Source: a virus. Taken from it: a stretch of DNA of 36,078 bases. How positions within the stretch are numbered: position 1 is the first letter of the stretch; the number at the start of each line of letters is the position of its first letter. The stretch is from IMG/VR virus record IMGVR_UViG_3300037585_003754, positions 1 through 36,078 of that record; one strand, given 5' to 3'. Positions 8,902-36,078 of the stretch are shown piece after piece. The notes below the pieces were generated by a model. The model worked only from the letters and a program-made list of their open reading frames with translations. It was not told the origin of the DNA and searched no databases. Both the position numbers and the translations under genes were made by a program.

Positions 8902-9510
8902 GTGAGTTCTTTTACTCTAATAGCTTCCAATGCGCTTCAACAGCTGGGCGCTGCCCCTATCTCGGATATTGCCGAGAATACGGGGCGCGCCAAGCGTGTT
9001 AATTCTATCTATCAGGATGTAAGGGATGCTGTGATCAGGGATGCGGCTTGGAACTTTGCCGTGGTTCGTGTTCAGCTTGCGGCTCTTGCAGATGCTCCCG
9101 CTTTTACCTGGGCGAAACAACACCAAATGCCTGAGAATCCTTATTGCTTAAGGGTACTTGATGTTTATTCTGGTGATGAGCGCATTGACCATGTAATTGA
9201 AGGGCGTAAAATTCTTTCTGATTATTCCACCATAAATCTTTTATATTTACAACGGGTTACTGATCCATCTCAGTTTGATCCTCTTTTTATTGAAGCTTAT
9301 GAGGCTCGCTTGGCTGCGGAGTTGGCTATTCCCATTACAGGTTCTCGTGGTATTGCCCAGGATTTTTGGGGTACGTATGACAACAAGATCGCTAATGCTC
9401 GGTTGGTTAATAGTCAGGAGGGTACCCCGGCTGCCATTCAGGCGAATTCTTTAGTCGATGTTCGTCGTCGTACTTTTGTGGTTGATGATCAGAAAATTAA
9501 GGTTGAGTGA
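8902..9510 (+). CDS. tail tubular protein A (gatekeeper/adaptor)
   Basis: A 202-aa protein starting at GTG 8902 with GGAGGG upstream. The start ASNALQQLGAAPISDIAEN, followed by RAKRVNSIYQDVRDAVIRDA and a WNFAVVRVQLA strand, is the family signature of tail tubular protein A (T7 gp11-like). It would form the ring between portal and nozzle. The gene order capsid, head protein, TTPA, TTPB is standard. Confidence 0.92.
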   Translation: MSSFTLIASNALQQLGAAPISDIAENTGRAKRVNSIYQDVRDAVIRDAAWNFAVVRVQLAALADAPAFTWAKQHQMPENPYCLRVLDVYSGDERIDHVIEGRKILSDYSTINLLYLQRVTDPSQFDPLFIEAYEARLAAELAIPITGSRGIAQDFWGTYDNKIANARLVNSQEGTPAAIQANSLVDVRRRTFVVDDQKIKVE

Positions 9511-28447: not shown

Positions 28448-28768
28448 TCAAGATGCGTTTGATTCTGGGGGTAGTGATCTGTTTTTTTGCCAATCTTGCA
28501 TTTGCAGCCTGTGTTTTCGTGCTTGCTCTTCTTTCCATTTAGCGGTTTTTAGTTCTTTGAGCTTGGCTCTGATGGTTGCTGGCACGTTGTCAGTTGGCCA
28601 CCATTTTTCCTTTTCTTTGCATATTTCAATTATAGATTCTACGAATAATGCTTCGTCCAGGTCTTTCAATAATTGCCACCATGCTTCAATCTGATGTTTT
28701 TCCTCTATTTTCAGTCCGCATGAGGACAATATTGCCAGCCCTACTTTAAATGTCTTTTCTGTCAGCAT
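28448..28768 (-). CDS. helicase-loader-like hypothetical protein
   Basis: A 106-aa all-helical protein. The layout (an N-terminal helix, then ESIIEICKEKEKWWPTDNVP followed by ATIRAKLKEL) resembles small phage proteins such as G39P/G40P-loader types, in which a W/P-rich turn precedes an 'xPtxxeir' helix. That is a weak resemblance only. Its start overlaps the 56-aa gene before it by 23 bases and it has little SD. It is the distal gene of the leftward operon. Confidence 0.6.
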   Translation of the reverse strand: MLTEKTFKVGLAILSSCGLKIEEKHQIEAWWQLLKDLDEALFVESIIEICKEKEKWWPTDNVPATIRAKLKELKTAKWKEEQARKHRLQMQDWQKNRSLPPESNAS

Positions 28769-28916
28769 TTTCTTTTGGCTCTACTTTGTATGGATCAGGG
28801 AAAACGTGTTGTTCGAATTTCCTAGAATCAAAATTAGAGTAGTTCTTTTTAAGGTCTGTTATTAGCTTTTTAATTACATTGGCTATGACCTTAAAGTCCT
28901 TCCTGGTCATTGACAT
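28746..28916 (-). CDS. 56-aa small phage protein
   Basis: The reading frame starts at ATG 28916 with AAGGAG 4 bases upstream. MSMTRKDFKVIANVIKKLI, then SNFDSRKFEQHVF, follows the well-known layout of tiny phage proteins (an S/T-R-K-D/H-F-x-x-I-A start and an N-x-x-F-D-x-x-R/K-F end), usually of unknown role. The start overlaps the end of the preceding gene and the end overlaps the next, as in a compact operon. Confidence 0.78.
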   Translation of the reverse strand: MSMTRKDFKVIANVIKKLITDLKKNYSNFDSRKFEQHVFPDPYKVEPKENADRKDI

Positions 28917-29095
28917 AATTCTCCTTTCTTTTTTAGTAATATTTCGTTCATATGATCAAGCAGCATTTGCGTTTCTTCTTTCGATCTTGATTTGGCTCTA
29001 CAGCTTAGAATTATTTTATTTCCATAATATATATTCCAGTATGTAGACCTATCTTCTCCTTTCCCGTCATGGTGGATGTAATAGAATTTACTCAT
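28907..29095 (-). CDS. 62-aa hypothetical protein
   Basis: Starts MSKFYYIHHDGKGEDRSTYW with AAAGGA upstream. It looks like an N-terminal beta hairpin (YWNIYYGNKIILSCRAK) followed by one helix (SKEETQMLLDHMNEILLKK). No family is recognised. Confidence 0.72.
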   Translation of the reverse strand: MSKFYYIHHDGKGEDRSTYWNIYYGNKIILSCRAKSRSKEETQMLLDHMNEILLKKKGELCQ

Positions 29096-29105
29096 TTTTC
29101 CTTTC

Positions 29106-29145
29106 TTTAAAGCGTCAAGGGGGCAAGCCCCCTATCAACTTTAAA
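29106..29145 (-). other. strong intercistronic hairpin
   Basis: AGGGGGC (29118-29124), AA, GCCCCCT (29127-29133), enclosed by TTTAAAG (29106-29112) and CTTTAAA (29139-29145). It lies between two - strand genes. No T run follows on either strand, so a classical terminator is unlikely; RNA processing, stability or pausing is more plausible. Confidence 0.7.
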
Positions 29146-29148
29146 CGG

Positions 29149-29373
29149 TTAGGATTTTGTCAGGACAAAATCTTTGCGTTTAATAACCGGATGAGATGGT
29201 GAAAAAGCAATCACCTCTCCGTTTGTTAGGCGGCAGGCTGTGGAGCCTGAGCCGTTTTGCTTTACGAAGGTGCGTGTGCATCCATCGTAATCTGATTGAA
29301 ACACGTTTCCGGGCTTCAAGTCAGCGAATGTACCTTCCTTTACAGAAGGTTTAGCGTTGAGACGAATCTTCAT
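29149..29373 (-). CDS. 74-aa hypothetical protein
   Basis: Starts MKIRLNAKPSVKEGTFADLK with AAAGGAG upstream. It has a beta-rich pattern with a compact barrel feel (GNVFQSDYDGCTRTFVKQNG, TACRLTNGEVIAFSPSHPVI). Its neighbour upstream in the operon is the glutamine amidotransferase. No known family is seen. Confidence 0.72.
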   Translation of the reverse strand: MKIRLNAKPSVKEGTFADLKPGNVFQSDYDGCTRTFVKQNGSGSTACRLTNGEVIAFSPSHPVIKRKDFVLTKS

Positions 29374-29420
29374 GGAGACTCCTTTCTCAAAGGGTTAATA
29401 ATAAGACATAGATCCTGATT

Positions 29421-30116
29421 CTATGCCCCTTTTACGCCATCACGAATGTTTTGGCGTGACCACATTTTGTATTGCTTGTCTCTGCTGGAATAATATCCAG
29501 TCCCATATCCCATGTAGTAGTCATCAATGTCATCCCAATAGTATGCTTTCCTGGTTTGAACATGGTTGAGATTGGAATACCAAATGTCTTCGTGTTTTTG
29601 CCAGCTTCCATACAGGTTTACTTCTCCTGTGTTTTCCATTATGGCTATTTTTTCGTTTATGAATCTGAGAAAGCCTTTTTTGGTTTTATATGCCATGTAG
29701 GCTAGAGCTCTGCTGTCAGACCAATCTTCTTGGAGTGGTCCTTCAGGGAAGTCAGCTTCTCCTGAAAACGGCATGATGCTTTGTTTCCAATCTGACCATG
29801 TTCCGTTGTGAAATAAGACGGGATTTTTTGTCTTATCTTTTATAGTCAGGGCGACTTTTTTATCCATTGGGAAGGGGTGTGTGAGCTTTGGGCATACTTC
29901 TCCTACGCTTGCTATTCTAAAATGAATTATGTAGGGGAGAGTAGGCTTTTCTTTCTCTATGATTTCCATGACTTTAGCTGCGTCTATTGCTTTTTCGTAT
30001 GATATTTCTCCGTTTTTATACCATGCGATTCCCGCTCCATGCGGGTTTGTGTTTTCTGCTGGTGCTAATTCCGCAGCTGTGGGGTGTTCTTTTGTTGGGA
30101 CTAGTATTACGCACAT
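29421..30116 (-). CDS. class II glutamine amidotransferase (Ntn hydrolase)
   Basis: A 231-aa protein. The second codon is TGC, so removal of Met exposes the catalytic Cys (MCVILV). Further class II landmarks are NPHGAGIAWYKNGEI, IIHFRIASVGEVC followed by LTHPFP, and LFHNGTWSDW; these give the Arg and Asn-Gly that hold glutamine and the oxyanion. It would hydrolyse glutamine to supply ammonia. It lies two genes downstream of the amidoligase in one tight operon. GGAGG precedes ATG 30116. No synthetase domain is fused, so it must serve another protein. Confidence 0.85.
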   Translation of the reverse strand: MCVILVPTKEHPTAAELAPAENTNPHGAGIAWYKNGEISYEKAIDAAKVMEIIEKEKPTLPYIIHFRIASVGEVCPKLTHPFPMDKKVALTIKDKTKNPVLFHNGTWSDWKQSIMPFSGEADFPEGPLQEDWSDSRALAYMAYKTKKGFLRFINEKIAIMENTGEVNLYGSWQKHEDIWYSNLNHVQTRKAYYWDDIDDYYMGYGTGYYSSRDKQYKMWSRQNIRDGVKGA

Positions 30117-30332
30117 CTAATTTTCCTCCTTTGGCATTATCATTATTTCCTCGTTTAATCTTGCTGTTTCTTGCTCAACGATGCTTATGAGTTCGTGTTG
30201 GATTAGCATTTCTTTGAACTCTTTTGCATCCTTTTTGGTCTTGAATGTTTTTGGTTCTCTTTCTTCGTCGCTTATAAATGACAAGTGTTCGCATTCTTCT
30301 TCTTTGCAATTTCTTGCCAAAACGTATTTCAT
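30117..30332 (-). CDS. 71-aa hypothetical between amidoligase and GATase
   Basis: Starts MKYVLARNCKEEECEHLSFI, with a charged helix (TKKDAKEFKEMLIQHELISI) and an acidic tail ending MPKEEN. Its SD (GAGGAGGAA) is built from codons of the amidoligase's EEE tail, so expression is tied to that gene. It could be a substrate peptide, an adaptor or an unrelated small protein; nothing is recognised. The short Cys-x4-Cys (C9, C14) may be redox or metal related. Confidence 0.75.
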   Translation of the reverse strand: MKYVLARNCKEEECEHLSFISDEEREPKTFKTKKDAKEFKEMLIQHELISIVEQETARLNEEIMIMPKEEN

Positions 30333-30333
30333 A

Positions 30334-31383
30334 TTATTCCTCCTCGTAGATTTGGTGTGAGTATTCGCTGTTGTGGCGTTCTTCCAGTACCCGTCTTGAT
30401 ACGGTATGGATTTTTGTTGCTGGTTTTATGTTTTCTGGAATTAAGTAGGTTTGCTCTGGATGGCAGACATATTCTTCCAGTGGAATGTTATTGCCTGTAA
30501 GTTTTAATCCTTTGGCGCTTACCCATCCCATATGGTCATACAGTTTTGCGTGTGATTCGCCTTTGTATTGGATAGCTTGTTCTGGTGTGATTATTTCTTC
30601 GTAAATTTCTTGTTTTTTGCTGGTCATTTGCACTTCTGTTTCGTCTTCCCAGGCATCTTTTAATTCTTCTGTTTCGTTTTCTAAATAGTTTTCGACTGTT
30701 CTTAATGTTTCAAAGATGGCGCTTTTTATTAAATTAATATCTGGCGGGCTGGTGAAATCTTTCCAGCTTGTTTTGTTTTCTGGATTGGTGTGAAAGGCTG
30801 GGAGTAGTCTGAATTCCATGGTGTTCCAAAGGCCGTAGCAGTAGTTGATATGTGTATATCTATCTCCGCCTCTTCCTTCCACGTGCATTTGATCTTCTGC
30901 TCTGAATTCTGCTTTGCAGTAACTATTTTTACCGTTTAATCTTTCCCAGAATAGATGATTTTTGGGCAGGCCCATTTTATTGCCCCACTTGCCCATTTTC
31001 TTAATGTAGTAGTTGTAGTATTTTGGTGTTGCGAGTTTGATGTAGTTGTTTATATGTTTTACTGATACATGGACATGGATTCCACAAGTGGAGTTTGCAA
31101 GGTCTGGTGCAGCCTTGTTGATCCATGACTCTATGTGCCTTATTTGAAGAGGTTTGCTGGCGATTTCTCCTTTCCAGGTTGCTCTGTTGTCTGGTATAGC
31201 CACAGATCCGTCGTATTTAAGGTTTAACGGTTGTTTCAGTCTCTTGATGACGGCATTTTCGTTTCCTTCCGGGTGCGCTGGTAAGCCAGTTTCAGCACTT
31301 TTATATTTTGACCATGCTCCTTCGAATTCAATTCCTACGGCTCTTATGTGTTTTTGCTTAGGAATTATTTTTTGCTGTTTCAT
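30334..31383 (-). CDS. glutamine-synthetase-like amidoligase (Amidoligase_2 type)
   Basis: A 349-aa protein. ATG 31383 is chosen over TTG 31386, with GGAGG 6 bases upstream. Family motifs run in order: VGIEFEGAW (about 16-24), YDGSVAIP (57-64), WKGEIASKPL, TCGIHVHVS (about 99-107), KAEFRAEDQM, RYTHINYCYGLW and NTMEFRLLPAF. These match the acidic, Arg and His positions of the GS-fold amidoligases, which join an amine or ammonia to a carboxylate using ATP. The neighbouring class II GATase is the expected ammonia source. The last about 120 residues (from VQMTSKKQEI) are not recognised. The substrate is unknown. Confidence 0.85.
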   Translation of the reverse strand: MKQQKIIPKQKHIRAVGIEFEGAWSKYKSAETGLPAHPEGNENAVIKRLKQPLNLKYDGSVAIPDNRATWKGEIASKPLQIRHIESWINKAAPDLANSTCGIHVHVSVKHINNYIKLATPKYYNYYIKKMGKWGNKMGLPKNHLFWERLNGKNSYCKAEFRAEDQMHVEGRGGDRYTHINYCYGLWNTMEFRLLPAFHTNPENKTSWKDFTSPPDINLIKSAIFETLRTVENYLENETEELKDAWEDETEVQMTSKKQEIYEEIITPEQAIQYKGESHAKLYDHMGWVSAKGLKLTGNNIPLEEYVCHPEQTYLIPENIKPATKIHTVSRRVLEERHNSEYSHQIYEEE

Positions 31384-32251
31384 CAAATTCCTCCATTGAA
31401 ATGATCATTGACTTGTCATAAGGCATGATGTTTTCTGAATAAATTTTATAAAATAGTTCTTTCAATCTCATCATGTAGTCATCTAGTGTTTTGCTTGGGA
31501 ACAGCCCGTCTATGCTTACTATGATGGGCTTGTTTGGGTTCATATACATATAGTCTAGGTCGTTTTTGAAGATTTCATTTGCAGGGGTTTTTGCTTTTGG
31601 CAGGCCTTTTTCGTCTACTGGGTAGTCGTTTACTGCGCATAGAAATCCAATGTTTGGTTTCCCGTTTTGGTTGACAAGTTTTCTTCCGCCGTATTCGAAA
31701 TAACAGAGATTTCTATAATCGTCATGTAGGTAATAATTATGATATGATCTTTGGGGATGGGCTTCAGGGATTGCTGCTGATTTCCACTTATAATCTTGTT
31801 TTTGTGCGGAATATCCTTTGTCGAACCAGTTATCTCTGAAGTATGTCTGTAGTATAGGGCTTTCGAATAGGATTTGTATTCCAGCGTTCATGCGTTGTAT
31901 TCGTATTTTATGAAGGACTCCCTTTTTCGGGGGGTCCTGTTTGACTATTACAATCTCTTTCTTGTTATCCATAAGCTGAACTCCTTTCCTTTCTGTTGGC
32001 ATGAGTGCTATTTTTTCTTTTCTTCTAATTCTGAATCTGCATCCTTTACAAACCTTAGTCCTGATTGTTTTAGGTGTTGGTCTAGTGCATCTCATTCCAC
32101 ATTCAATGCACGTTATCGGATGATCCTGGTAGTTGGTTGTTGATATTGGCTCTACTGCTGGTGGTGCTGGGGCTGGGTAATCTTCTGATATAGCCGTCCA
32201 ACTATTTACATCTAGTTGTTCAATATTTTCTCTTCCTTCTTCTATGGGCAT
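31358..32251 (-). CDS. 297-aa protein with N-terminal zinc site, upstream of amidoligase
   Basis: It has an acidic Pro-rich start, then CIECGMRC (residues 48-55) and CKGCRF (about 70), a four-Cys zinc ribbon. From about residue 94 a second unit begins (MDNKKEIVIVKQDPPKKG), with its own SD AAAGGAG upstream of an in-frame ATG (minus strand, near 31972), so two products are possible. The rest is unrecognised (YLHDDYRNLCYFEYGGRKLV, PNKPIIVSIDGLFPSKTL). It overlaps the amidoligase gene by 26 bases, suggesting a shared task. Confidence 0.75.
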   Translation of the reverse strand: MPIEEGRENIEQLDVNSWTAISEDYPAPAPPAVEPISTTNYQDHPITCIECGMRCTRPTPKTIRTKVCKGCRFRIRRKEKIALMPTERKGVQLMDNKKEIVIVKQDPPKKGVLHKIRIQRMNAGIQILFESPILQTYFRDNWFDKGYSAQKQDYKWKSAAIPEAHPQRSYHNYYLHDDYRNLCYFEYGGRKLVNQNGKPNIGFLCAVNDYPVDEKGLPKAKTPANEIFKNDLDYMYMNPNKPIIVSIDGLFPSKTLDDYMMRLKELFYKIYSENIMPYDKSMIISMEEFDETAKNNS

Positions 32252-32487
32252 TATTTTCCTCCTGACGCGCTTTTTTCTATTGCGAGTATTATGTCAATCG
32301 CTTTTTTGTAGAGTTTGATGTTTGTTTCGGCTTGTTTAATTTTGTCCTGGTATTTGTTGATCTCAGCGTTTTTTGTTTTTGCTTTTCTAGCTTTTTCTTT
32401 CTTTTCTTTTAGATATTGTTTCCTTCGTTTCTTAAATTTTGCTCGTTCTTCTTCGTGTTTGCTGTTCTTAAGGTCTTTTCTTGGCAT
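32251..32487 (-). CDS. 78-aa lysine-rich coiled-coil protein
   Basis: Starts MPRKDLKNSKHEEERAKFKK and continues as a charged helix, then a more regular coiled coil (QDKIKQAETNIKLYKKAIDI). It overlaps the preceding zinc protein by 79 bases in another frame, which is long for this phage, so either this start or the neighbour's end might be misjudged. The SD is moderate (GAGAAGG). Confidence 0.6.
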   Translation of the reverse strand: MPRKDLKNSKHEEERAKFKKRRKQYLKEKKEKARKAKTKNAEINKYQDKIKQAETNIKLYKKAIDIILAIEKSASGGK

Positions 32488-32756
32488 GTGTATACCTTCT
32501 CACCTTTCTCGTTAAAGGATATAAAATGGGTTATGTATCTTTCTCTGAACACGTGTGTATATTTCTGCCCGCACTTCTCGCAATTTGTATAGAATTTTAC
32601 TTCGTTTTTATTAGGTCGTTCGAAGTGTTCCCAGTATTCATCTATTGCGTTTTGACTTAGGCAGTTTGGGCATATTTTTTCATCGAATTTTTTAATTTCG
32701 TTTTCAGTAAGACTAACTTCTATTGTTTTTAATACGCTGTTTGAATTTCCGGACAT
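32409..32756 (-). CDS. zinc-ribbon hypothetical protein
   Basis: A 115-aa protein with AGGAG before ATG 32756. CPNCLSQN (residues 29-36) and CEKCGQKY (about 59-66) make a four-Cys zinc ribbon, flanked by beta strands (VKFYTN, THVFRERYITHFISF). This is typical of small nucleic-acid-linked phage proteins. The C-terminal 26 residues lie over the next gene's start. The role is unknown. Confidence 0.72.
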   Translation of the reverse strand: MSGNSNSVLKTIEVSLTENEIKKFDEKICPNCLSQNAIDEYWEHFERPNKNEVKFYTNCEKCGQKYTHVFRERYITHFISFNEKGEKVYTCQEKTLRTANTKKNEQNLRNEGNNI

Positions 32757-33193
32757 TCTTCTCCTTCTGTTGTTTGGGGTTTAATAGTGAGAAACGTGCG
32801 GAGTTCTTCTTTGGCTTGTTTCTTTTTCCCTTTTGGTTTTACTATTGTTGCTTTTTTCCCCTCTTCCTTTTCTTTTTCTTTTTCACTTGCTTCCAATGCT
32901 TCCTCCTCTTCTTCTTGTAGGTATTCGGCTCTTCTTTCAGCTTCATAATCTGCTATATCAACCAGTTCTTCTGCTGTTGCATTTCTTTTTTTGAGTTGGT
33001 AAAAAATTCTTGTTCTGTTTTTTGTTGCTGTGTCTACTTTAATTGCGTTTTTTTCTTCGTTTAGAATTGCGCATTCGCCTTCTGCCTGAATGTGTGTCCA
33101 GAATGGGCCGTCATACAATGACCAGACTGGATTCGATTCTATTCCGTCTGCGCTGGTTGTTCTTGTTACTTGCATTACGTCGTAAACTTTCAA
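32729..33193 (-). CDS. hypothetical protein with acidic/basic coiled-coil tail
   Basis: A 154-aa protein. I choose TTG 33193 because AGGAGG sits 7 bases upstream and the codon overlaps the previous stop (TTGA); an ATG at 33217 has no SD. The N-terminal half is a small beta domain (KVYDVMQVTRTTSADGIESN, YDGPFWTHIQAEGECAIL). The second half is Glu-rich then Lys-rich helix (EYLQEEEEEALEASEKEK, KPKGKKKQAKEEL). No family is recognised. Confidence 0.7.
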   Translation of the reverse strand: MKVYDVMQVTRTTSADGIESNPVWSLYDGPFWTHIQAEGECAILNEEKNAIKVDTATKNRTRIFYQLKKRNATAEELVDIADYEAERRAEYLQEEEEEALEASEKEKEKEEGKKATIVKPKGKKKQAKEELRTFLTIKPQTTEGEECPEIQTAY

Positions 33194-33402
33194 TTTAGTC
33201 CTCCTATGTTTTTCCAATATTCGTTAATTTGTGGCCCGTCTATTTCTTCGAGCCGTTTTTGCATTAAAAATGCTGCGATAATTATGAAGTCTGGCGGTTT
33301 GTCTTCATATCTGATATGGAGTAACGAGAGCGTTTTCCTAATAAAATCAGCTTCGTCGTCGTTTTTGATGTCCCATGGTATTGTGTTTTTATCTTCGCTC
33401 AT
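33190..33402 (-). CDS. 70-aa hypothetical protein
   Basis: Starts MSEDKNTIPWDIKNDDEADF with AAGGAG upstream. A mixed hydrophobic helix (PPDFIIIAAFLMQKRLEEID) is too interrupted for a secure membrane call. It is the first gene after the structured stretch at 33420-33650 when read leftward, so that stretch may act as its leader. Confidence 0.72.
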   Translation of the reverse strand: MSEDKNTIPWDIKNDDEADFIRKTLSLLHIRYEDKPPDFIIIAAFLMQKRLEEIDGPQINEYWKNIGGLN

Positions 33403-33734
33403 TTTTCTCCTTGGTTGAGGCGCACCTATACAACCGTGGGCAATTTGGAGAAACTTCTAAACCCACATCCGATTTATTGGCTGTATAGGCACGCTTTATT
33501 AATAAGGTCGGCTGTAAAGGGTCTTGGAACCCGCAGGTTTTGTAGAACGCTTTACAGCCTGGAAAGAGGTTGTTCGATTTATTGAGGGTGCGTGAGGTTT
33601 GGGCACTCCGCCTCGGATATTTAAAACTGTCAGATGGTAAACCCAAACATTCAGTTCCCGCGAGTCTGCGCTACTAGTCACGGCCTTCTCAATTGTCCTA
33701 ATACGCCTCTTTCTTATTCGGTTGGAGGTGATAC
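33403..33734. ncRNA. candidate structured RNA with several stems
   Basis: About 330 bases with no convincing gene but much self-complementarity. Stem A is 33425-33435 with 33479-33489 (10 of 11 pairs) around GTGGG/CCCAC (33436-33440, 33462-33466). Stem B is 33510-33519 with 33550-33559 (10 perfect pairs). Stem C is 33597-33603 with 33642-33648 (7 perfect). A closing helix at 33420-33427/33586-33593 would enclose stems A and B. A 10-base direct repeat (33470-33479, 33575-33584) follows in both halves. The neighbours are all on the - strand, so the RNA is more likely read leftward; a tRNA does not fit. Confidence 0.5.
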
Positions 33735-33827
33735 TTATGAATCAATCCAAGTCCATATGAGCATGAATCCAATCACAACTACCCAAGCTATTAATCCTAC
33801 GATCATTAAATCTTCAATTTCTGTCAT
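33735..33827 (-). CDS. 30-aa single-membrane-segment microprotein
   Basis: ATG 33827 follows a perfect ribosome site (TAAGGAGGT, 4 bases upstream). The product MTEIEDLMIVGLIAWVVVIG, then FMLIWTWIDS, is an acidic start and one membrane helix of about 22 residues. Such tiny phage membrane proteins can act as holin-like, antiholin or host-inhibitor peptides; nothing specific is recognised. It sits between two apparently non-coding, structure-rich stretches. Confidence 0.75.
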   Translation of the reverse strand: MTEIEDLMIVGLIAWVVVIGFMLIWTWIDS

Positions 33828-33839
33828 TTTTACCTCCTT

Positions 33840-34052
33840 AATTGGTGAGGATGGCGCCACCCTGTCCTCGCAGGGGCATGGTCATTGTCGGACACCTCGA
33901 CTAAATAAAAAGCCTTGCAGAACTTCTTAACCCCAGGGGGGCTCCATTCTAGCAGAGGGCTTTCCCAAATATGGATGAGCGTTCTTTCGCTTCAGTCTAC
34001 TCAGGAATTTCCTGGATTCCACGAAACAAATAGGCTCACCCTTGGGGGGGGG
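33840..34052. other. non-coding stretch with hairpins and G runs
   Basis: No supported gene. Visible elements are CCCTG/CAGGG (33860-33864, 33871-33875), TGTCC/GGACA (33863-33867, 33890-33894), GAGCG/CGCTT around 33978, CAGGA/TCCTG (34002-34014) and a run of nine G at 34044-34052. It acts as spacer and possible leader of the 30-aa membrane protein. The pairing is weaker than in the next stretch. Confidence 0.45.
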
Positions 34053-34373
34053 CTAAGTTTCTCCTAGCTGATGTTCTTTTGCCCTCCTGATTTCATATCT
34101 TCTATTCCAGCATTTTTTTGCTGCTTCTTCACCTTGCCTTCCCGTTATTCCACGTATTCTATTTAGGCTTAGAGCATGTTTGTATTTCATGTATTCAGCT
34201 ATTTCTTTTGAGTTTAGATGGGATTTTTCCAGGAATTCCCTATGCTCCTTTGCTTTATGCTTACTAGCCCAGAATCTTTTCGCTTGAAGGTGTGTTCCGG
34301 CTTGTGTGTATTCCTTCTTCACCTTGTCGTATATTCTGAATAGCTTTAGCTCTCTTTTAACGGTTATTTCCAT
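34053..34373 (-). CDS. basic helical hypothetical protein
   Basis: A 106-aa protein with many Lys/Arg/Glu (MEITVKRELKLFRIYDKVKK, KHKAKEHREFLEKSHLNSKE). The C-terminal half (RGITGRQGEEAAKKCWNRRY) could be a small DNA-binding helix pair, but there is no recognised motif. It overlaps the previous gene by 10 bases. Confidence 0.72.
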   Translation of the reverse strand: MEITVKRELKLFRIYDKVKKEYTQAGTHLQAKRFWASKHKAKEHREFLEKSHLNSKEIAEYMKYKHALSLNRIRGITGRQGEEAAKKCWNRRYEIRRAKEHQLGET

Positions 34374-34636
34374 GGTATTAGCCTTTCTGTTTGGAACCCG
34401 TGACTATGGTATTTATAAATTACCTGTAAACAGGCTGGTCTTTTTTTGTGTTCTGTAAATAGTTGCATGTCTGTTTTCCCAAAACGTGACGTTTTTTCTT
34501 CAAGAAATGCGAAGGTATTGATGTCGTTTTTAAATGATTTGTCTGATATTTGGTCTGAGATGTTAAGCTCTTCTATGATATTCATTGGTACCTCTAAGTA
34601 CCCACTGTTAGAGTCTTGGTGAAGGATGAATTTCAT
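34364..34636 (-). CDS. 90-aa hypothetical protein
   Basis: ATG 34636 is chosen because AGGAG lies upstream, and it forms an ATGA overlap with the preceding stop. MKFILHQDSNSGYLEVPMNI, then a helical middle (FKNDINTFAFLEEK) and a beta C-terminus (CLQVIYKYHSHGFQ). No family is recognised. Confidence 0.72.
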   Translation of the reverse strand: MKFILHQDSNSGYLEVPMNIIEELNISDQISDKSFKNDINTFAFLEEKTSRFGKTDMQLFTEHKKRPACLQVIYKYHSHGFQTERLIPWK

Positions 34637-34842
34637 GTTAATACTCCTAGTTCTAAGAATTCCACGAATAGGGTTAATGCTACTCCTGTAAATATGCCTA
34701 TCGTATATATGCACAGGTATATAACAGCATCTTGAAATTCATATTGATCTTCTAAGCCCTCTTCTTCAATTACTTTTTCTACCTGTTGTTCTTCCTCTTT
34801 TGTTAGTTTTGTGCCAAATTGCTTAAAGCTTGGGATCGCCAT
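34633..34842 (-). CDS. 69-aa protein with C-terminal membrane helix
   Basis: The second ATG (34842) is chosen because AGGAG is 9 bases upstream; the first ATG (34851) abuts it. An acidic soluble N-terminus (LTKEEEQQVEKVIEEEGLED) precedes a single hydrophobic helix (AVIYLCIYTIGIFTGVALTL). A tail-anchored layout; possibly an envelope-acting early protein, but the function is unknown. Confidence 0.75.
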   Translation of the reverse strand: MAIPSFKQFGTKLTKEEEQQVEKVIEEEGLEDQYEFQDAVIYLCIYTIGIFTGVALTLFVEFLELGVLT

Positions 34843-34851
34843 TACACGCAT

Positions 34852-34949
34852 CTCCTGTTTTGTAGGTTTTTTTATGCTGTGTGGATATAATCTTCCTTTG
34901 TGTTCCGACTCATTAGAGTCGGTTCCTTTCTTTTTACTCCTTTAAAGGT
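34852..34949 (-). promoter_or_regulatory. leader region with 7-bp palindrome
   Basis: This lies between the terminator and the 34842 gene. CCGACTC (34905-34911) and GAGTCGG (34916-34922) form a perfect inverted repeat with a 4-base gap. On the - strand, TATATC follows about 17 bases later, a possible -10 without a recognisable -35, so an activator-type site or operator is possible. Because the terminator lies upstream, a separate promoter for the leftward operon must be nearby. A 13-codon frame (MSRNTKEDYIHTA) starts in the palindrome. Confidence 0.4.
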
Positions 34950-34987
34950 AAAAAAAAGCTGACGGAGCTATAAGAGCCCCGCCAGCT
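34950..34987 (-). terminator. intrinsic terminator of the leftmost-reading early gene
   Basis: On the - strand, AGCTGGCGGGGCT (34987-34975) pairs with AGCTCCGTCAGCT (34969-34957) over 13 positions including two G-U, with a loop of 5, followed by eight T residues (34957-34950). It starts only a few bases after the stop of the 223-aa gene. Confidence 0.92.
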
Positions 34988-34992
34988 GGTTT

Positions 34993-35664
34993 TTAGCTGA
35001 GTTCGCCAACTACTGCTTTCCATAGCTTGCAGTTGAAATCTACAGCCTTTAAGAGCTCGTATCGTGTGTCCTGTTCCTCTTTTGTGTATTCTATTCCTGT
35101 GTCCGGGTTGACAGGTCTGATGTCGTCTCTCCAAGTGAGGACGTTTCTTAGCTCTTTGGCTTCCTTATGAAGCCTTTTTGCATTGTCCATAGCTTCGTCG
35201 TAGGTGGGTGTTTTCTTTTCTCGTTCCAGCCGATTGAGTTTTTGTTTCGCTCGGAATTTCCAATTAGGATATCGATTGATAACGAGAATTTTTTTGTCTT
35301 CGGCTTCCTCAATATGTTTTGCTATGAAAGGAGCGTCTTTTGCAGCCATTCCTTCTTCCATATATGAGTGGTTAGTCCCGTCCCAGAAAGCAATTACTAG
35401 ATCTGGCGTAATGTTAGGGTCGATAGATAATAGAGGGTCGCCGATATCAAGAAGACTTGAAACGAATCGGATATCGTTTCTTAGGTTGGGGTCTTGAGAT
35501 GCGTTGCACATCAAGACGAGACTATCTCCTTTAGTGGTCAAATCTCCCAATTCTTGAGTATTCTGTAAGTTATACTCAAGGGTGCTTTGAAAGAAATCGC
35601 CTGGTCTGAAGCATCTTGCTGAGTGTAGAATTTGAACTACGAAGTCTTTTGCTTTGTTTCCCAT
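34993..35664 (-). CDS. 223-aa hypothetical protein, own transcription unit
   Basis: ATG 35664 has GGAG 8 bases upstream, and the gene ends at a strong terminator. It looks like an alpha/beta globular domain in the first 130 residues (KGDSLVLMCNASQDPN, TPDLVIAFWDGTNHSYMEEG, DKKILVINRYPNW), with alternating strands and helices as in small nucleotide-binding folds, though no P-loop is present. A charged helical C-terminus follows. I recognise no family. Being alone and first in the leftward direction, it may be an early gene. Confidence 0.75.
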   Translation of the reverse strand: MGNKAKDFVVQILHSARCFRPGDFFQSTLEYNLQNTQELGDLTTKGDSLVLMCNASQDPNLRNDIRFVSSLLDIGDPLLSIDPNITPDLVIAFWDGTNHSYMEEGMAAKDAPFIAKHIEEAEDKKILVINRYPNWKFRAKQKLNRLEREKKTPTYDEAMDNAKRLHKEAKELRNVLTWRDDIRPVNPDTGIEYTKEEQDTRYELLKAVDFNCKLWKAVVGELS

Positions 35665-35698
35665 AATGTTTCTCCAAATTTAAAGGTTAAATTTCCGA

Positions 35699-35772
35699 GG
35701 CTTCTTGGTCTTTTGCGACCTCGTTTGCCTCGTGAGCGATTTGCGAACGAGGTCGCAAAAGAGCACGAAGCC
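35699..35772. repeat. 17-bp perfect inverted repeat hairpin
   Basis: 35709-35725 and 35746-35762 are exact reverse complements (17 of 17), separated by 20 bases. Outside lie GGCTTC (35699-35704) and GAAGCC (35767-35772), joined by small 4-base internal loops. There is no terminator-like T run. It is 35 bases upstream of the leftward 223-aa gene. It could be an RNA leader hairpin, a protein-binding site or part of a replication origin. Confidence 0.85.
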
Positions 35773-35780
35773 GTCCACCA

Positions 35781-35920
35781 CTCGGAGTCGTCGGAGCGAT
35801 TGTCGGCTGAGGTCATGACAAAATTCGACGCCCCTTGTTTTTGTCGATTTTGGCATGTTCTCAGCCTACGTCTTGGTATCGCTTGGTTGTGTCGCCAACA
35901 GAAACCACGACGATTCCGAG
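35781..35920. ncRNA. candidate structured element, long nested stem
   Basis: Ordered nested pairs are CTCGGAGTCGTCG (35781-35793) with CGACGATTCCGAG (35908-35920, 12 of 13), AGCGAT (35795-35800) with ATCGCT (35878-35883), GGCTGAG (35805-35811) with CTCAGCC (35860-35866), CATG (35814-35817) with CATG (35854-35857), and AAAATTCGAC (35820-35829) with GTCGATTTT (35843-35851, one bulge). A side hairpin TTGG/CCAA (35883-35886, 35895-35898) fits on the 3' side. Such layering is unlikely by chance. The strand is not known. Confidence 0.5.
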
Positions 35921-35927
35921 TAACTCG

Positions 35928-36078
35928 ATGGCGGAAATTAAACCGTTAAATCTTGATGAGAACATTATGAACAGGAAACAAGTAAAAGCACTTCGTACAT
36001 CAAATCACACTCAAGGCAAGATCTTCAGACCGAGGGAGGCGATTTCTTTCAAGGCCCAATCCATTTTTTTCTTTCATG
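35928..36078 (+). CDS. partial open frame running off the right end
   Basis: From ATG 35928 the frame stays open for 50 codons to the window edge (MAEIKPLNLDENIMNRKQVK, ALRTSNHTQGKIFRPREAIS). Only a weak SD (CGAG) is seen. It has no recognised family. If the genome is circular, the last base plus bases 1-2 make a Glu codon and the frame goes on to TGA at 78-80, for a 76-aa protein. Coding status is uncertain. Confidence 0.45.
   Translation, partial: MAEIKPLNLDENIMNRKQVKALRTSNHTQGKIFRPREAISFKAQSIFFFH

Follow-up and report, generated by a model that had tools for sequence, protein, structure and literature searches.

A structured RNA conserved in two phage contigs

A noncoding stretch in the genome of an uncultured tailed phage very probably holds a large structured RNA without an Rfam family. 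It occupies 650 nucleotides (nt), 33403-34052 on the minus strand, of the IMG/VR virus record IMGVR_UViG_3300037585_003754, all 36078 bases of which form the window analyzed here. The same RNA was found in a related record, IMGVR_UViG_3300025168_000018 (40912 bases; G003 below), recovered by a query with the head-tail connector. G003 is circularly permuted relative to the window, and aligned blocks are mostly 64–83% identical. Its counterpart noncoding stretch, L016 3303-3729 (427 nt), lies between the same two leftward genes, and we therefore take the element to be the whole of 33403-34052, from the stop codon of the upstream gene to the start of the downstream gene, as delimited by open reading frame (ORF) lists, the positions of the G003 orthologs and the alignment. 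The original prediction had placed a multi-stem RNA of the leftward transcript at 33420-33650. Such an RNA is supported by pairing conserved in G003; its extent was underestimated by ∼400 bases. The shared RNA is ∼410 nt long in G003; in the window it comes to ∼430 nt, excluding an insert and an extra hairpin that G003 lacks.

We have high confidence that the conserved RNA fold is real, with pairs kept through two-sided changes between the two genomes. Retention of so elaborate a fold in a relative despite much sequence change indicates that this is very probably a working RNA of an uncatalogued kind.

Conservation of the fold

The window and G003 were structurally aligned on the minus strand, in separate parts because the 117-nt insert of the window misled whole-length MAFFT. 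Identity in the hand alignment was 57% (221 of 387 aligned positions). The consensus contains 83 pairs, tallied after adjusting the register of one hairpin: 49 were unchanged, 5 had changed on one side, 27 had changed on both sides without loss of pairing, and 2 were broken, so that 81 of the 83 form in both genomes. Sliding the 3' partners by 1–3 columns left 0–2 double changes and 54–65 broken pairs, a lenient control because the structure had been fitted to these same sequences.

Tested with RNAalifold against column shuffles, the 5' part reached a z score of -5.94 and the 3' part -10.16, and none of 300 shuffles was as good. MAFFT alignments made without structure gave -4.66 (5') and -5.70 (3'), with none of 200 shuffles as good. 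As controls, 33 other homologous stretches were scored on both strands, yielding 66 values (means -0.85 and -0.72, minima -4.71 and -4.70), only two of them below -4.5. The 3' part scored below every control whether aligned by hand or by MAFFT. A single-sequence fold of 33403-33720 gave z -2.9 for the minus strand and -4.5 for the plus strand.

The two extreme controls have features of their own. The stretch with z -4.70 contains a short intergenic hairpin (29105-29150, minus strand) whose context is conserved in G003, and the one with z -4.71, on the plus strand, is the start of a coding gene (8903-9122).

Anatomy of the RNA

All parts of the RNA lie on the minus strand and are described from 5' to 3'. 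The 5' stem-loop (33964-34046) consists of the helices 34046-34042/33968-33964, 34039-34034/33980-33975, 34026-34022/33989-33985 and 34014-34011/34005-34002, with double changes in all four. A second long hairpin, helix d (33910-33962), has 13 consensus pairs, five double changes and a conserved AAGAA on its 3' side; a small hairpin within it, where the genomes do not align, was kept unpaired. The 5' stem-loop and second hairpin have ensemble probabilities of 0.78–1.00 in the window, except for the inner stem at 34026-34022, which is improbable in both single-sequence ensembles (0.01 in the window); in G003 the two hairpins reach just 0.01–0.40. Helix d stands at 0.95–0.98 in the window versus 0.01 in the ensemble of G003 itself.

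Next comes a probable pseudoknot core (33847-33901), where pairing persists in both genomes through double changes. The loop of a hairpin (33901-33887) can pair with a downstream palindrome, UGGCGCCA (33859-33852), by joining 33896-33891 to 33858-33853, as GGUGUC with GGCGCC in the window and GACGUC with GACGUC in G003. Two further stems, 33874-33871/33864-33861 and 33869-33865/33851-33847, form an H-type pseudoknot around this loop-loop pair. The loop-loop pair is also present with the MAFFT alignment alone; an equally good match is expected by chance ∼0.1 times per such region. Ensemble probabilities of the core are weak in both genomes (0.00–0.20) because the energy model allows no pseudoknots.

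Alignment with G003 places the window-specific insert of 117 nt at 33722-33838. From sequence and translation a hydrophobic ORF of 30 codons, MTEIEDLMIVGLIAWVVVIGFMLIWTWIDS, is predicted within it (33735-33827); this ORF had no match in PHROGs. A Shine-Dalgarno-like GGAGGU (33837-33832) can pair with ACCUCC (33729-33724) at a probability of 0.56–0.62.

The P1-P2 domain (33562-33713) is defined by conservation and double changes. Its closing helix P1 (33713-33706/33569-33562) has 8 pairs, identical in the window and G003, and is flanked by nearly invariant internal-loop strands, CRUAUUAGGACA (33705-33694) and AAAUCGAACA (33580-33570). In P2 (33693-33688/33586-33581) four of the six pairs are double-changed and one is broken in G003. 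P2 is capped by a variable arm (33687-33587) whose fold could not be matched to the shorter arm of G003. At aligned places the variable arms carry palindromes, ACUAGU in the window (33678-33673) and ACCGGU in G003 (L016 3474-3469); the centre differs and self-complementarity is kept.

Stem B (33510-33559), a conserved 3' hairpin followed by GACCU, is double-changed at four of its lower ten pairs and at two pairs above these. Its arms, GGCUGUAAAG/CUUUACAGCC in the window versus GGCUACGGAG/CUCCGUAGCC in G003, display compensatory change, and its ensemble probability is 0.91–0.99 in both genomes. Taken together, P1, P2 and stem B have helix probabilities of 0.78–1.00 in both ensembles, the double changes lying in P2 and stem B.

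Stem A (33420-33494), a long hairpin that folds at -33.3 kcal/mol alone, belongs to the window only: in G003 just 21 nt separate the GACCU after stem B from the next start codon. Like the insert, it falls outside the pairs common to the window and G003. A resemblance of 33452-33464 to 33921-33933, which would make stem A a third copy of conserved motifs, was no more than suggestive when judged against shuffles.

Search for further copies

Neither the viral-contig scans nor the species-genome scan produced a third copy of the RNA. Queried with blastn against phage records, the window region and the G003 RNA had no matches. The proteins encoded next to the RNA led to G003 only, or to nothing, in viral contigs, and to nothing in phage records. 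A nucleotide search with 33380-34120 over 12 connector-relative records gave one match, of 25 bases, in G003. A covariance model of the 5' part (R1, 126 nt) matched only its two parents among 20 sources; the later connector relatives L024-L026 were compared with this model only. When 18 window proteins were compared by tblastn with 8 loci, terminase alone matched, in five of the eight.

Short DNA patterns were also sought in viral contigs. Pattern GAGGCRTATTAGGACA occurred in 3 stretches, one of them G003 and the remaining two lacking the context around the match. For AGGCNTATTAGGACA there were 93 stretches; 119 loci contained 99 occurrences, seven of which were the window or overlapping G003 loci. 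Many other occurrences share one alignable context that by eye resembles a common protein gene, and among the best 30 of the 99 sites an 8-pair arm with a nearby CGAAC was found in window and G003 entries only. The 49 stretches with AAGGCTNTTTANNNNGNCGAG included the hairpin context, judged by eye, in G003 only.

Comparison with known RNA classes

The window has no Rfam match at the gathering score, and permissive scans of both RNAs returned only unrelated families at chance level. By Rfam covariance model, neither the window nor G003 matches GOLLD, ROOL or OLE; group I and group II introns and the known ribozyme cores in Rfam likewise gave no match. We agree with the original prediction that large ornate phage RNAs are the nearest kind, and it was correct not to claim GOLLD membership. 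No description of this RNA was found in the open-access literature searched.

The resemblance to GOLLD, ROOL and OLE is one of style only. PMC12286853 describes these as large RNAs of phages or bacteria that assemble into homo-oligomers by kissing loops and further contacts; some have palindromic loops that change yet remain palindromic, and GOLLD often lies near tRNA genes of phages or prophages. As in GOLLD so described, the 3' part of our RNA is the firmer one and the peripheral arms vary; but it is about half as long as GOLLD (>800 nt), lacks an Rfam match and has no tRNA nearby, the window containing none. With ROOL as described there, it shares a phage-borne setting, a variable linker and a complex structure that includes both pseudoknots and kissing loops, and the window insert resembles a ROOL-type optional segment; it differs in being shorter, without an Rfam match and without a tRNA island. 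The likeness to OLE is the changing yet palindromic loop, here UGGCGCCA/UGACGUCA, which in that paper serves as evidence of contacts between copies. Beyond lacking an Rfam match, our RNA differs from OLE in that its palindrome has a further pairing partner within the molecule, in a different loop, and for that reason the palindrome is not specific evidence of a dimer. The packaging RNA of phi29, a podovirus RNA that assembles through loop-loop contacts, is comparable in those contacts; the RNA described here is much longer, has no Rfam match and is not beside the terminase gene.

Possible roles of the RNA

We propose that the leftward transcript would carry a large structured RNA between two small genes, and that this RNA would most likely work as a folded noncoding RNA, either released from the operon transcript or retained in it. 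The pseudoknotted 5' core and the P1/P2 internal loop could then serve as contact sites for a protein, a different RNA or a further copy of the element. That the folded RNA acts as such is a reading whose chances we judge about even. It is suited by the differing distance to the start codon in the two genomes, which fits an RNA whose action bypasses that codon.

Several points weigh against this proposal. Support for the fold spans only two genomes, and the alignment registers were set by hand. Aligned by MAFFT alone, the 5' part does no better than the most extreme controls. Its helices have low probabilities in the ensemble of G003 itself (0.00–0.40), and when the non-pseudoknotted 5' consensus is forced, without counting pseudoknot pairs, the penalty is 7.5 kcal/mol for the window and 10.3 kcal/mol for G003. 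The opposite strand also gives a strong consensus fold (z -4.44 and -8.51), the leftward strand having been assigned mainly from the flanking genes. We infer transcription of the RNA, its action in trans and all of its partners. Neither a promoter nor a terminator specific to the RNA was detected, promoter-like sites are rarer than in shuffles, and tight packing between two genes suits a cis element equally well.

Such a cis element would be a leader: the RNA, as part of the mRNA, would sense a protein or ligand and control translation or stability of the 70-amino-acid gene at 33190-33402. The RNA does end near the start codon of the orthologous gene in both genomes, and the lack of a separate promoter or terminator fits. 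Yet the distance to that start codon varies, stem A being an insertion peculiar to the window, and the two genomes showed no alternative fold in common over the start site; size and pseudoknot core also exceed those of the usual leader. We consider a leader possible, if doubtful.

A more ambitious form of the noncoding proposal is a new phage RNA class that builds an RNA-only multimer. The palindromes UGGCGCCA/UGACGUCA and ACUAGU/ACCGGU would join copies, and the ORF arm would be an optional linker or cargo; the stem that closes this arm would mask the start site of the ORF. Palindromic loops fit a homo-oligomer, yet are also explained by pairing within one molecule, and the RNAs overall are not rich in palindromes; we think this improbable. 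Phages have few large structured RNAs, several of which build unexpected RNA-only assemblies of unknown purpose (PMC12286853). An additional class, from a compact ∼40-kilobase phage and with a stable core, a near-invariant internal loop and an optional ORF arm, would be a small system open to experiment. It would demonstrate, too, that a pair of related phage contigs can suffice to expose a structured RNA missing from the family library.

An ORF inserted in an arm and a compact pseudoknot core recall the layouts of introns and ribozymes, and the RNA might be self-cleaving or self-splicing, perhaps as a degenerate intron whose peripheral loop contains an ORF. The Rfam results just given for introns and ribozymes, in both genomes, and the location of the element between genes rather than within one make this quite improbable. 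Very unlikely is an element acting as DNA, for instance an origin of replication or a packaging site built from inverted repeats; there are many of these and both strands fold well, but the conserved internal-loop strands and pseudoknot pairs suit RNA, as do 5 G-U against 0 A-C cells on the leftward strand, a small count on a strand chosen when aligning.

Repeats and the proposed switch

The original prediction started from repeats, all of which are present. The near copies GGCTGTATAGG (33479-33489) and GGCTGTAAAGG (33510-33520) agree at 10 of 11 positions, CGATTTATTG recurs exactly at 33470-33479 and 33575-33584, and the inverted repeats supply the arms of stem A, at 33420-33435/33479-33494, as well as those of stem B, at 33510-33522/33547-33559. 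When 33403-34052 was dinucleotide-shuffled 300 times, the observed counts of offsets alike at 10/11, 10/10 and 12/13 or better were reached in 40, 60 and 25 shuffles, respectively, and all three together in 8. By themselves the repeats are only slightly out of the ordinary; it is the fold that goes beyond chance.

From these repeats a riboswitch-like device had been proposed, in which 33550-33559 pairs either with 33510-33520 or with 33479-33488. The alternative pairing with 33479-33488 does exist, at 9 of 10 bases. The free fold, in which stems A and B coexist, has -58.1 kcal/mol versus -37.2 with the alternative forced, which breaks both hairpins at a cost of ∼21 kcal/mol, and two conserved folds of similar stability were not seen for this pair. 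In the order of leftward transcription stem B is complete before the arm of stem A is made. Near copies notwithstanding, that cost, the absence of stem A from G003 and the conservation of stem B by compensatory changes leave mutually exclusive pairing hardly credible.

A closing helix, 33420-33427 with 33586-33593, had also been suggested. On the plus strand this helix has two G-U pairs, which on the leftward RNA turn into A-C; stem A contains its left arm, and its right arm touches the conserved P2. The intricate pairing is found instead at 33901-33847, outside the region first outlined. What survives is the conserved multi-stem RNA with its repeats and stems, while the two-state switch, the closing helix and the borders do not.

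Genomic setting

Among the rightward genes of the window are those for tail proteins, terminase and the head-tail connector (PF12236). Judged by this connector, the nearest cultured phages infect Pelagibacter, at ∼29–36% identity. A contig filed as a Phycisphaerales metagenome-assembled genome (L118), from the species-genome scan, encodes relatives of the connector (42%) and terminase (59%); the leftward module of the window (28448-36078) is absent from the stretch of it that was examined. Proteins of this module have almost no family matches, and among the collections searched the module occurs elsewhere in G003 only.

The RNA is flanked upstream by a 106-amino-acid gene (34053-34373, minus strand), whose G003 ortholog was recognized from a common C-terminal end and position, and downstream by the 70-amino-acid gene (minus strand), 63% identical to its G003 ortholog. 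A terminator-like hairpin at 34957-34987 (minus strand) has 13 pairs followed by a T run, and a similar hairpin occurs in the G003 sequence. The hairpin may bound the transcript holding the RNA and suggests that this transcript starts after it. G+C content is 0.52 in the G003 RNA versus 0.36 and 0.40 in its flanks, and 0.47 and 0.52 in the RNA parts of the window versus 0.40 in the leftward module.
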